From the NCBI GenBank assembly GCA_030637775.1, contig DAOWFY010000049.1, forward strand, positions 1-21,449: a stretch of 21,449 bases of DNA, given 5' to 3'. The DNA is from DAOVGU01 sp030637775 [NCBI: bacterium] (GTDB taxonomy: Bacteria > Ratteibacteria > UBA8468). This document shows, piece by piece, positions 7,691-21,288 of the stretch. Made by a program: the position numbers and the translations under genes. The notes beneath the pieces are model-generated. The model worked only from the letters and a program-made list of their open reading frames with translations. It did not search any database and had not been told where the DNA came from. Every line of letters starts with the position of its first letter. Within the stretch, counting starts at the first letter, position 1.

Positions 7691-7761
7691 AAGGGGTCAG
7701 GTCTCAACATTTGACAATTTAATATATCAACATTCTGTCAAATGTTGAGACCTGACCCCTT
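7691..7761. repeat. 71-bp perfect inverted-repeat element (REP/MITE-like)
   Basis: Two 26-bp arms match perfectly in inverted orientation: 7691-7716 (begins AAGGGGTCAGGTCTC, ends ATTTGACA) and 7736-7761. They flank a 19-base AT-rich centre. One arm occurs again at 11832-11857, so this is a dispersed repeat and not a simple terminator. No T-run follows the stem. It fills the gap between the second LysM gene and phoH and ends 7 bases before the phoH start. Such elements are often mobilised in trans by a transposase; no transposase gene is in the window. Confidence 0.85.
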
Positions 7762-9652: not shown

Positions 9653-10420
9653 GTGGCTTTAACAAGAACGAATGCGTTCATTATTCAGAGTAAGAGATTT
9701 AGAGAAACAAGCCTTTTCATTATTTACTACACCCTTAACTTTGGGAAAATTAATGCTATTGCCAAGGGAGTCATCGGGACTAAAAAACCCCCCCTTTTTC
9801 ATCTTTTCCCCTCTTATGTGGAGCTTTTCCTGTATCGAAAGGAGAGCGCTTTGTCCCTTGTCTCAAGTTCAGACCTTCTCGATCCATTTCCAAAATTACA
9901 TCAGGATCTAAAGAAATTATCTTACAGCCTCTATATTTTAGAATTGCTCAAAGAAACGATAAAGGAAAATGAGAAAAATAGCTCCCTTTTTTGGCTACTG
10001 CTTAAAACTTTCAAACTTTTGGAGGAGGCAGAAGAGCCAAATCTAATAGAATTGGTCTTAGTTGCCTTCCAACTGAAATTTTTGAAGGTCCTTGGCTATG
10101 GTCCCTTTCTAAATAATTGTGTCTCCTGCCAGGAAAAGATTGAGAAAAATTTACCGAGCCTTAGACTTAGCGCTAAAGCCGGAGGTGTTCTCTGCCGGAG
10201 ATGTTCGAGAGATGCCGGAGAGTCTCTTTCTATCGGTTATCCTTTAGTCGCATTGATGAATTATCTCTTGGATTTGAAGTTCTCTCTCCTCCCGAGATTA
10301 AAGGTCCCCGTTAATTTGAGAAAAGAGCTTATAAAGTATGTCAATTACTTTAGAACCTATCATCTTCCGGTTAGCCAGAAATCATTAGAGTTGTTGAAAT
10401 CCATAGAAGAGAATGCGTAA
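9653..10420 (+). CDS. recO: DNA repair protein RecO
   Basis: RecO loads RecA on SSB-coated single-stranded DNA together with RecR in the RecF pathway. The 255-residue product has an N-terminal OB-fold (TRTNAFIIQSKRFRETSLFI, then KINAIAKGV) and a helical domain. It also has a zinc module with Cys156/Cys159 and Cys181/Cys184, in CVSC and CRRC. It starts with GTG directly after the DUF502 stop. The 3' end overlaps the fumarase alpha gene by 8 bases. Sequence divergence from model RecO is large but the architecture is complete. Confidence 0.92.
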   Translation: MALTRTNAFIIQSKRFRETSLFIIYYTLNFGKINAIAKGVIGTKKPPLFHLFPSYVELFLYRKESALSLVSSSDLLDPFPKLHQDLKKLSYSLYILELLKETIKENEKNSSLFWLLLKTFKLLEEAEEPNLIELVLVAFQLKFLKVLGYGPFLNNCVSCQEKIEKNLPSLRLSAKAGGVLCRRCSRDAGESLSIGYPLVALMNYLLDLKFSLLPRLKVPVNLRKELIKYVNYFRTYHLPVSQKSLELLKSIEENA

Positions 10421-11243
10421 GATTTCCGCCGAAAAGATTGTTGCTGCTGTTAGCCATCTTTGTATCGATAGCAATTACCGGATGAATAAAGATTTAATAG
10501 CTTTATTGAAGAAGAACCAGCAAAGGGAGAAAGGTCGAGCCAGAAGAACCATTGCCTCTATCCTGGAGAACATTAAGATTGCCGAGGGAGAAAAAATTCC
10601 TATCTGCCAGGATACAGGGATGGTGACAATTTTTTTGGAGATAGGAAATAATCTCAAAATCAACTTAGGCCGTTATTCCTCCCTTTCCGATATTATTCAG
10701 GAAGGGGTAAGAAGGGGTTACAAAGACGGGTATTTACGTAAGTCAATAGTTAATCCTCTATCCCGGGTTAATACAAAGGATAATACGCCGGCTATTATTC
10801 ATGAGAAAATAGTAGTCGGGAGCCACTTAAAAATTAAGGCTTTAATTAAAGGTTTTGGCGCCGAGAATATGGCTAAAATACGGATGTTGCCTCCAGATAG
10901 CAAAGAAGAAGAAATTAAAATATTTGTAATTGATTCCATCAAGGAGGCATCTTCCAATCCCTGTCCACCCGTAATTGTGGGAATAGGTATTGGCGGAACG
11001 ATGGAGAAGGCAGCCTCCTTAGCAGAGGAGGCGCTCTTAGAACCAGTTATGAGTAAAATTGAAAAATTTGAAAAAGAGCTGTTAACCGAAATCAACAAAT
11101 TGAACATTGGACCGGCGGGATTGGGAGGAAAAACAACCGCTTCATCTGTAAGGATTAAAACCTTCCCTACCCATATTGCCGGACTGCCGGTAGCGGTCAA
11201 TATCTCCTGCTGGGCAAATCGTCATAAAGAAATAATTATATAA
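10413..11243 (+). CDS. Class I fumarate hydratase, alpha subunit
   Basis: With the next gene this forms the two-subunit, oxygen-sensitive iron-sulfur fumarase (or a close L(+)-tartrate dehydratase relative), which interconverts fumarate and L-malate. The three cluster cysteines are present: Cys65 in ICQDTGM, Cys184 in NPCPP and Cys266 in ISCWANRH. The glycine-rich IGIGGTMEKA and GPAGLGGKTT segments are also present. It is 276 residues, normal for the alpha subunit. It overlaps recO by 8 bases and is followed three bases later by the beta subunit. Fumarase and tartrate dehydratase cannot be told apart by sequence alone; the housekeeping context favours fumarase. Confidence 0.92.
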   Translation: MRKISAEKIVAAVSHLCIDSNYRMNKDLIALLKKNQQREKGRARRTIASILENIKIAEGEKIPICQDTGMVTIFLEIGNNLKINLGRYSSLSDIIQEGVRRGYKDGYLRKSIVNPLSRVNTKDNTPAIIHEKIVVGSHLKIKALIKGFGAENMAKIRMLPPDSKEEEIKIFVIDSIKEASSNPCPPVIVGIGIGGTMEKAASLAEEALLEPVMSKIEKFEKELLTEINKLNIGPAGLGGKTTASSVRIKTFPTHIAGLPVAVNISCWANRHKEIII

Positions 11244-11246
11244 AAG

Positions 11247-11855
11247 ATGAGGGTTAAGAAGATAGTTAGCCCATTAGAAAGAAAGGAAATAAAAAAACTG
11301 AAAGCGGGAGACGAAGTTTTGCTTTCCGGTATCATCTATACGGCGAGGGATGCTGCCCATAAAAGAATGGTGAAAGGTTTGAAGCGACGAAGTCATTCTG
11401 ACCCCCGTGCTTTCTTGCGAAAGCAAGAACAGGGGGAAGAATCTCTCTTTTCTTTACCATTCGATTTGAGGGGTCAGGTGATCTATTATACCGGACCAAC
11501 GCCAGCACCTCCAGGAAAGATTATCGGTTCCTGCGGACCAACAACAAGTTATCGCATGGATCCATACACCCCGACCCTTCTGAGATTAGGTTTAAAAGGA
11601 GTGATTGGCAAGGGAGACCGCAGCAAGGAAGTTGTTGAGGCAATAAAAAAGTATCAGGCCCTCTATTTTATTGCTCTCGGCGGTTGTGGTGCTTTATACT
11701 CTCAATTTGTGAAGAAGGCAGGGTTAATTGCTTATCCTGATTTAGGGTGTGAGGCAATCTTAAAATTGGAAGTAGAGGATTTTCCCCTCATCGTTGGTAT
11801 TGATAGCTATGGGAGGGATATTTATAGGAGGAAGGGGTCAGGTCTCAACATTTGA
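11247..11855 (+). CDS. Class I fumarate hydratase, beta subunit (repeat-modified)
   Basis: This is the partner of the preceding gene and supplies substrate-binding residues. Conserved parts are present: LSGIIYTARDAAHKRM (27-41), LPFDLRGQVIYYTGPTPAPPG (70-90), GPTTSYRMDPYTP (97-109) and GVIGKGDRS. Two oddities are visible. First, residues 49-66, between HKRMVKGLKRR and LFSLPFDL, are encoded by a palindromic element that normal family members lack. Second, the last seven residues (KGSGLNI) and the stop come from a copy of the 26-bp repeat at 11832-11857, replacing the native end. The active-site core is intact, so the protein may still work. It is 202 residues long. Confidence 0.88.
   Translation: MRVKKIVSPLERKEIKKLKAGDEVLLSGIIYTARDAAHKRMVKGLKRRSHSDPRAFLRKQEQGEESLFSLPFDLRGQVIYYTGPTPAPPGKIIGSCGPTTSYRMDPYTPTLLRLGLKGVIGKGDRSKEVVEAIKKYQALYFIALGGCGALYSQFVKKAGLIAYPDLGCEAILKLEVEDFPLIVGIDSYGRDIYRRKGSGLNI
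11392..11443. repeat. Palindromic element inserted in frame in the fumarase beta gene
   Basis: The segment folds into a three-part hairpin. ATTCT pairs with AGAAT, CCCCC with GGGGG, and TTCTTGC with GCAAGAA, closed by a GAAA tetraloop, with small unpaired stretches between. The ends (GTCATTCTGACCCCCG and GGGGGAAGAATC) resemble widespread bacterial REP palindromes. It keeps the reading frame and adds about 17-18 residues to the beta subunit. Confidence 0.7.
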
Positions 11856-11857
11856 CA
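11832..11857 (+). repeat. Solo arm of the 26-bp repeat
   Basis: This copy is identical over 26 bases to the left arm of the inverted-repeat element at 7691-7716. It lies at the very end of the fumarase beta gene and provides its last codons and its TGA stop. No inverted partner is found within the next 100 bases. Confidence 0.85.
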
Positions 11858-11861
11858 AAAT

Positions 11862-11901
11862 ATCCTGTCCCACCTCATCCTGTCCCACCTCGTAGGTGGG
11901 A
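11862..11901. repeat. 15-bp tandem duplication with a hairpin
   Basis: ATCCTGTCCCACCTC occurs twice in direct tandem (11862-11876 and 11877-11891). The second copy continues into an 8-bp stem, TCCCACCT / AGGTGGGA with a CGT loop (11883-11901). The hairpin could end transcription of the fumarase genes, but it lacks a T-run. It lies between the repeat arm and the tRNA gene. Confidence 0.6.
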
Positions 11902-11919
11902 ATGGTTGGGAATAGTTTT

Positions 11920-11998
11920 CGGGGTGTAGCGCAGTTTGGTATAGCGCGCTTGGTTCGGGACCAAGAGGTCGGCGGTTCGAATCCGCCCACCCCGACCA
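11920..11998 (+). tRNA. tRNA-Pro (anticodon CGG)
   Basis: The acceptor stem CGGGGTG pairs with CACCCCG, followed by discriminator A and an encoded CCA. The anticodon stem CTTGG / CCAAG encloses the loop TTCGGGA, giving anticodon CGG, which reads CCG proline codons. The T arm GGCGG-TTCGAAT-CCGCC is perfect. The gene lies between the fumarase genes and the galactose cluster. Confidence 0.95.
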
Positions 11999-12022
11999 GA
12001 GTTATTTATTTAAAGAAATCGA

Positions 12023-12127
12023 ATGAAGAAAAAGAAAATAATTAAGAAGGATGGTCGTTATCTTATCTATTATAGCTTTGATAAAGAAGATAGAGTAAAA
12101 AAACAGAAAGACAGAAAAAAGCACTAA
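12023..12127 (+). CDS. Possible 34-residue basic small protein upstream of galT
   Basis: The ORF encodes MKKKKIIKKDGRYLIYYSF followed by a charged tail ending KKQKDRKKH. It is lysine-rich, has a compact KDGRYLIYY core and no cysteines or membrane segment. It ends one base before the galT ATG, so it could be translationally coupled to galT. The ribosome binding site is weak (AAAGAAA). I do not recognise the family with certainty. The protein-like core, the spacing and the absence of another gene in this gap are the support; chance is possible. Confidence 0.5.
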   Translation: MKKKKIIKKDGRYLIYYSFDKEDRVKKQKDRKKH

Positions 12128-12128
12128 A

Positions 12129-13121
12129 ATGATGGAGTTACGTTGGGATCTAACTTTAGAGGAGTGGGTGGTTATTGCCTCCCATAGGTCGGAGCGCACT
12201 TTCTTTCCTCCAGCCGATTATTGTCCTTTATGCCCTTCCAAAAAGGAAAAACCGAAAACCGAAATTCCTTCCTCAAATTATGAAATAGTTATCTTTGAAA
12301 ATAAATTTCCCTCTTTCTGTAAGAGTGTCAGCAATCAGCCATTAGTCACTGGTAAAAAGGAAATTTTATACAGAAGGGCGCCAGCGAAAGGAATTTGTGA
12401 AGTTATCTGTTATACTCCCCGTCATAATCTGACACTTACTGACCTTCCGACTAACAGAATAGAAAATCTTATCCTTGTCTGGCAGGATAGATATAGAGAA
12501 TTGGGGAAATACTCTTTTATAAAATATGTCTTCATCTTTGAGAACAAGGGAAAAGAAGTTGGAGTTACTCTTTCTCATCCTCATGGTCAAATATATGGTT
12601 ACCCTTTTATTCCTCCAAAGATAAAAAAGGAACTAGAAGCCTCCTTTGATTATTTTAAGAAAAAGAGAAAATGCCTCTTTTGTGAAATAGGAAAAAGAGA
12701 AAAGAAGGAGAAAAAAAGGGTAATTTCTCAAAACAAAGATTTTTTAGCCTTTGTTCCCTTCTATGCCCATTTTCCCTATGAAGTCCATATATTTCCCAAA
12801 AAACATCTTACTTCTTTCCACTCCTTTAAAAAAAATGATACAAGAAATCTTGCAGAAATAATGAAAAAAGTTTTGACTAAATATGATCGACTTTTTGGCT
12901 TCTCTTTTCCCTACATTATGAACATCCATCAAGCGCCAACCGATGGGAGAGAATATCCTTATTATCATTTTCACATTGAGTTTTACCCTTTCTACCGAGC
13001 AGAAAATAGGTTAAAATATCTGGCTGGCTCAGAAGAGGGAGCAGGGGTCTTCATCGGTGATCTACTTCCCGAGGACCAGGCTTCTCAACTCCGTAAATTG
13101 CGACACAATACTATACGCTAA
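12129..13121 (+). CDS. galT: Galactose-1-phosphate uridylyltransferase
   Basis: GalT transfers UMP between UDP-glucose and galactose-1-phosphate in the Leloir pathway, through a uridylylated histidine. The 330-residue product has a CPLC zinc pair (Cys32/Cys35), the catalytic HPHGQ at 150-154, and the later YPYYHFHIEFYP (His280, His282). The N-terminus LRWDLTLEEWVVIASHR is typical. ATG 12129 or 12132 is possible; neither has a strong ribosome binding site. The last residues (about KLRHNTIR) and the stop lie inside a dispersed repeat (13096-13140), so the native C-terminus has been replaced or extended. Confidence 0.93.
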   Translation: MMELRWDLTLEEWVVIASHRSERTFFPPADYCPLCPSKKEKPKTEIPSSNYEIVIFENKFPSFCKSVSNQPLVTGKKEILYRRAPAKGICEVICYTPRHNLTLTDLPTNRIENLILVWQDRYRELGKYSFIKYVFIFENKGKEVGVTLSHPHGQIYGYPFIPPKIKKELEASFDYFKKKRKCLFCEIGKREKKEKKRVISQNKDFLAFVPFYAHFPYEVHIFPKKHLTSFHSFKKNDTRNLAEIMKKVLTKYDRLFGFSFPYIMNIHQAPTDGREYPYYHFHIEFYPFYRAENRLKYLAGSEEGAGVFIGDLLPEDQASQLRKLRHNTIR

Positions 13122-13140
13122 CTTTAGTAGCAATATACGA
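13096..13140 (+). repeat. 45-bp dispersed repeat, left copy
   Basis: This stretch matches 21244-21288 in inverted orientation at 38 of 45 positions without gaps. The core GCTAACTTTAGTAGCAATAT (13117-13136) is identical. It covers the end of galT and the galT-galE gap. The two copies bracket about 8.1 kb holding galE to nadE. Confidence 0.8.
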
Positions 13141-13182: not shown

Positions 13183-14930
<1,748 letters not shown>

Positions 14931-15054
14931 TCTTTTAGTTAGCATCTCTGATGAGATTTCCCAGATTGGGCAGATTGAAAAGGTGGAAGCCATTTCTAAA
15001 CTGGTTGATGAGATCTGCGGTCTCGCAGACTAAAGAAGAAAAGGAGGTGTTAGC

Positions 15055-21243: not shown

Positions 21244-21288
21244 TCGCATATTGCTACTAAAGTTAGCAGATAGATTAGTATCGCAATT
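21244..21288 (-). repeat. 45-bp dispersed repeat, right copy
   Basis: This is the inverted partner of 13096-13140 with 38 of 45 identities, including a perfect 20-base core (21248-21267). It lies upstream of nadE. Confidence 0.8.

Follow-up and report, generated by a model that had tools for sequence, protein, structure and literature searches.

The fumarase beta subunit encoded in this stretch of DNA carries a REP-type palindrome that appears to have been inserted in frame into fumB and to be translated and tolerated there, the same process having apparently reached the linkers of other proteins in related genomes; we give this reading a probability of roughly 0.87. The window, i.e. the whole stretch of 21,449 nucleotides that was analysed, is an entire contig (C117) of the source genome (G000), which is a fragmented MAG of 1.40 Mb in 177 contigs and 84% complete. 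It was compared with a congener (G001), a sister genus (G003) and a fourth genome (G002), all four belonging to one bacterial family. The two fumarase genes are adjacent, 3 nt apart, and the features of this locus are as follows.

10413..11243, + strand: fumA, fumarase alpha subunit, 276 aa (Pfam Fumerase, 2.9e-98), without a repeat in the source genome.
11247..11855, + strand: fumB, fumarase beta subunit, 202 aa (Pfam Fumerase_C, 8e-52), host of the insert.
11385..11453, + strand: inserted segment, R47-S69, 23 aa compared with 1 in the sister genus (from alignments and link lengths).
11392..11401, + strand: left conserved arm, GTCATTCTGA (23 copies in the source genome, 1 of the reversed control).
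11402..11435, + strand: variable hairpin core, of which 11407-11432 recurs identically on contig C77 of the same genome.
11436..11445, + strand: right conserved arm, GAAGAATCTC (exact GAAGAATC in 80 of 82 family A copies).
11832..11858, + strand: a second, unrelated repeat of 27 nt with GGGGTCAGGTCTCAACATTTGACA, which overlaps the fumB stop codon and codes for the last residues.

The fumB reading frame is intact, without frameshift, and the palindrome at 11391-11444 supplies the codons of residues 49-66. The earlier note had described this hairpin-forming segment as a repeat with REP-like ends, set in frame between two conserved motifs where homologues have only a short link, and the DNA, the reading frame, the fold, the copies of the left arm and the Fumerase_C match agree with that description; the insert as a whole is longer than the 54 nt proposed, however, running over about 69 nt with limits that are uncertain by a few nucleotides because the flanks have diverged. 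As single-stranded DNA with its flanks (11380-11455), the segment folds at -14.5 kcal/mol compared with a shuffle mean of -8.7 kcal/mol (z -2.48), and an equal or better fold was reached by 1 of 200 shuffles. A search of positions 11200-12100 against Rfam returned no structured RNA except the downstream tRNA. In the fumarase beta alignment the window reads ...RMVKGLK-RRSHSDPRAFLRKQEQGEESLFS-LPFDL..., while the empty site reads RMVKKLPFDL in the congener and RMTKNLKKLPFDL in the sister genus; against these two empty sites no target-site duplication, as would mark a MITE, is visible by eye, the flanks having diverged. The link between the invariant H38 and P71 measures 32 residues in the window and 7-19 in relatives. 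These comprise 109 loci (7 residues, n=3; 10, n=2; 13, n=100; 19, n=4), or 107 distinct stretches once two duplicates are removed (7, n=2; 10, n=1; 13, n=100; 19, n=4), and none has an equally long loop. The net gain is thus 25 residues over the congener, 22 over the sister genus and 19 over the commonest length. The two nearest relatives by fumarase beta, CSMAG_1143 (L084) and Candidatus Ratteibacteria CG_4_9_14_3_um_filter_41_21 (L085), have links of 7 and 10 residues, and their fumarase beta stretches are identical to those of G001 and G003. The window would accordingly fall in the family of this Ratteibacteria genome, from which the lineage name is taken. On the simplest reading of these alignments, the insert would have been gained on the lineage of the source species rather than lost in both relatives.

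An AlphaFold2 model of the beta subunit alone, built on a 62-sequence alignment, has a mean pLDDT of 86 with values of at least 90 for 136 of 202 residues, and it adopts the same fold as fumarase beta subunits of known structure (5dni, Z 25.4 over 173 residues; 2isb, Z 25.3); Foldseek ranked the same entries high, with 7xky also among the fold matches. The insert lies in a linker that joins the helix following the ARDxAH motif to the LPFD segment. Values of pLDDT below 50 are confined to residues 49-51, 54-67 and the C-terminal 196-202, so that the model portrays the insert as a low-confidence and probably disordered stretch outside the folded core. A surface position for the loop may be inferred.

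The two arms define a dispersed repeat, family A, with the architecture GTCATTCTGA-hairpin-GAAGAATCTC. The pattern CATTCTGN{5,35}AGAATC matches 20, 38, 9 and 26 times in G000 to G003 with 0-1 matches for controls, and by eye a few of these matches are not genuine copies. The window copy falls outside this pattern because its core is longer, and a search with a long-core pattern gave three matches, all chance-like. The 26-nt core at 11407-11432, found unchanged in the second element on C77, has 14 near copies that differ from it at 2-3 positions and are spread over three of the four family genomes. Neither outcome that would have refuted the earlier note, relatives with a loop of equal length or a palindrome without a second copy, was thus observed. 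Among 82 family A copies the tag is TGTC in 51, AGTC in 17 (including the window copy), GGTC in 10, CGTC in 3 and another in 1, while the tail is CTC in 64. The outer stem of 5 bp opens with AT; a GA/GA mismatch and a core that varies in length come next. Arms and core together mostly span 25-60 nt. A sister family, C, has the form TCATTGCGA...GCAATCTC and is present in 8, 128, 21 and 83 copies in G000 to G003, with 0 for controls; the matches listed cover about 100 of the 128 in G001 and about 21 of the 83 in G003. A terminal stem of at least 2 bp occurs in 32 of 44 distinct family A cores (shuffled mean 6%, maximum 23%) and, among the matches listed, in 94 of 167 distinct family C cores (shuffled 16%); pairing within the core is maintained while its sequence changes. 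The two families share at least 14 cores. In its stricter form family A was found in 12 of 61 genomes, comprising all 4 genomes of the family, 2 of the 31 remaining genomes of the class and 6 of the 26 from the rest of the domain, so that its distribution is wide yet patchy.

Around the matches listed there are at least 331 distinct copies in G000 to G003 (82 of family A, 249 of family C), and among these matches 39 element-frame rows fall in open frames that encode 150 residues or more. Seventeen rows were dropped, as the element lay upstream of the likely start codon or in a reading frame without family support (a minority of the latter reading frames were searched against family libraries); L250 is doubtful. 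The 22 rows kept among the matches listed (family A, n=5; family C, n=17) amount to 22 of the 331 copies judged to lie in frame within 17 proteins. That judgement draws on open frames, family models and alignments, the family-model scan covering ten of the 17 host proteins and FumB being scanned separately; the count covers copies in open frames, with broken genes outside it. The hosts are:

FumB, in the source genome: the insert described above.
FumA, in the congener (C95, L180): two adjacent repeats, one from each family.
PolA, in G000 (L019), G001 (L295) and G002 (L260): repeat inserts.
LigA, in G003: repeat insert.
O-antigen-ligase-like protein, in G001 and G003: repeat inserts.
PabB, in G000: repeat insert.
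FtsX-like permease, in G000 and G001: repeat inserts (two rows), without an empty site.
ApbE, in G001: repeat insert.
PheT and PurL, in G001: the family model spans the element, with no clear net gain.
SPOR-like protein (name read from the sequence), in G001: repeat insert, without an empty site.
OppD, in G001 and G002: repeat inserts.

Empty sites are seen for FumB in G001 and G003, for FumA in G000 and for LigA in G000 to G002, while G003 has 10-13 additional residues at its FumA site in which no repeat is recognised. Different repeats occupy the PolA linker after LVKE in G000, G001 and G002; among the 13 other relatives aligned, 12 have a short linker and L366 has some additional residues. 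At a second position in PolA, after LLN, these three genomes again have a long stretch, with three different sequences, and all 13 others have a short one; one of the three sequences belongs to family C and one resembles many short places in these genomes. PolA was not found in G003. All four family genomes have a long OppD loop after GEA, with recognisable repeats in two of them. The two O-antigen-ligase-like orthologues align well, the main exception being a loop occupied by different repeats; both orthologues carry inserts and the empty site is seen in neither. It is tentatively proposed, at somewhat less than even odds, that these palindromes are modular, with arms and cores that may evolve and move separately, and that certain linkers could be recurrent targets for different palindromes across genera. 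As a separate observation on PolA, the proteins of L019, L295 and L260 contain several repeat-derived segments, and the G000 stretch around VGVGFIRPAGLINQ weakly matches many short places in G000, G001 and G008, and therefore probably represents one more coding family of repeats. Outside the family, four open-frame rows came from the 48 family A copies of the distant genomes G058, G035 and G047, and none was convincingly protein-internal; with 0 of 48 there against 5 of 82 in the family genomes, the numbers are too small for a distinction, and a general habit of insertion into proteins is unsupported.

Several other explanations of the fumB insert were weighed. The insert might have been co-opted, its mRNA hairpin tuning translation between fumA and fumB or its peptide contacting the alpha subunit. 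The adjacency of the two genes would suit such a role, as would the repeat dimer in the fumA of the congener, and it is a curious coincidence that both subunits of one enzyme have been hit in two sister species. However, the fumB insert occurs in one species only among the relatives seen, the segment is predicted to be disordered (in a model of the beta subunit alone), and the inserts of other proteins use several reading frames and encode unrelated peptides, which argues for tolerance rather than for a selected peptide; co-option is accordingly regarded as improbable. Hairpin-bearing segments that ribosomes bypass exist elsewhere, and this precedent raises the question whether the palindrome could remain untranslated through bypass or through excision from the mRNA. 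Skipping would not need the open frames in which the protein-internal copies lie, an argument that is weak because the search accepted open frames only, and we consider non-translation very unlikely. A lineage-specific loop extension by ordinary indels, with a palindrome arising by chance, would accord with the variation of loop length among relatives (7-19 aa), but both arms belong to a dispersed repeat and the 26-nt core is identical elsewhere in the genome; the copy counts and the recurrent core rule out a chance palindrome and leave this explanation with hardly any credibility. An assembly or binning artefact, which short contigs of a fragmented MAG might invite, is just as implausible, as fumB reads through without frameshift and similar inserts occur in independent assemblies at orthologous sites in PolA, OppD and the O-antigen-ligase-like protein.

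According to the preferred reading, a small dispersed palindrome of two short arms and an interchangeable core would have been inserted into fumB, most simply after the split from the congener, and would be translated as about 23 extra residues. Its length and frame happened to suit, and fumB therefore stays open; since the modelled loop is disordered and lies outside the core, the enzyme probably works and the insert would not have been removed by selection, making it nearly neutral. Members of families A and C would likewise have been placed into linkers of other proteins in several reading frames, in-gene copies surviving where frame and place allow, as in linkers, and gene-breaking copies presumably being lost. 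The repeats may spread as hairpins, perhaps of single-stranded DNA with an HUH/Y1 enzyme acting on them in trans, although a role of a Y1 enzyme for families A and C is a guess. Of the transposase class searched, Y1, matches were found in 23 of 35 genomes, and 20 of 39 loci were read, including 4 of the 8 matches of G000 to G003. None of these 20 loci contains a complete copy or a left arm of family A or C, and 4 contain a single 8-nt right-arm match. Spread by the Y1 transposases found is therefore unsupported in the loci read. Another repeat, with GGGGTCAGGTCTCAACATTTGACA, flanks the Y1 transposase genes in L219 and L221, and a variant does so in L223. In the window, the GGGGTCAGGTCTCAACATTTGACA repeat (26-31 nt) forms an inverted pair at 7691-7761, and its third copy is the one that overlaps the stop codon of fumB.

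The closest known counterparts are the Rickettsia palindromic elements (RPEs), which the earlier note had invoked, and the further in-frame copies in the same and sister genomes strengthen that comparison. RPEs are credited to Ogata et al. (2000 and 2002; cited through PMC2229807 and PMC10969869), and a title from 2002 calls protein-coding palindromes a unique feature of Rickettsia. Both systems consist of dispersed palindromes that sit in frame in unrelated conserved proteins, are tolerated there and also have intergenic copies, and here relatives provide empty sites. By contrast, the insert of about 69 nt is shorter than RPEs of the long type (105-146 bp, or about 150 bp), has an interchangeable core and resides in a candidate phylum far from Rickettsia. 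One paper gives the RPE length as 105-146 bp and reports that the R. conorii guanylate kinase with an RPE is active (PMC2229807), and another suggests that proteins of other prokaryotes may have undergone comparable changes (PMC10969869). The remark that protein-internal repeats are rarely reported outside a few groups needs qualification, as a study of CGTC REPs lists intragenic REPs in several species and in repair genes including polymerase I and DNA ligase, equates two of these REPs with RPE-6 and RPE-4 of R. conorii, and states that a dedicated transposase was not found (PMC3733652; Di Nocera et al., 2013). CGTC REPs share with the present repeats a GTC tag at one end, a stem that opens with AT, intragenic units, and polymerase I and ligase genes among the hosts; for the present repeats, no transposase lies next to a complete copy in the 20 Y1 loci read. 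They differ in having a stem of 8-9 bp with a loop of 4-5 nt and a CCA tail, whereas here a 5-bp outer stem is followed by the GA/GA mismatch and a variable hairpin, the tag, CGTC, TGTC or CCTC in those REPs, is mostly TGTC or AGTC and the tail mostly CTC. The repeats resemble CGTC REPs in kind while lacking some of their defining traits. GTAG REPs and their RAYTs resemble them as short dispersed palindromes in genomes with Y1 transposases, but the GTCATTCTGA...GAAGAATCTC consensus has no GTAG tag and the loci read contain no Y1 gene flanked by it, unlike a REPtron with its flanked RAYT gene. Among the best palindrome and repeat matches in the open-licence literature Ratteibacteria are unmentioned, and other reports may exist; matches by repeat sequence have titles that look unrelated.

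Protein-coding palindromes are frequent here, in a candidate lineage distant from Rickettsia. The empty and recurrent sites in sister genera offer a natural series on which protein sites accept insertions, and the same series bears on how hairpins spread without an obvious transposase. If the modular reading were true, linkers would be shaped by repeat turnover on a Rickettsia-like scale in a distant uncultured lineage. When such genomes are annotated, HSEALAEES, DCFANARND and similar peptides within proteins are best taken as repeat inserts and not as signs of protein function. Elsewhere in the window, the reading frame in 14234-15050, which we take to be galactokinase-like, ends after 102 aa with no reading frame of at least 90 aa before 15055, and the gene may be broken. 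Finally, a 45-nt inverted repeat (13096-13140 and 21244-21288) is 84% complementary, its two halves lying 8.1 kb apart.
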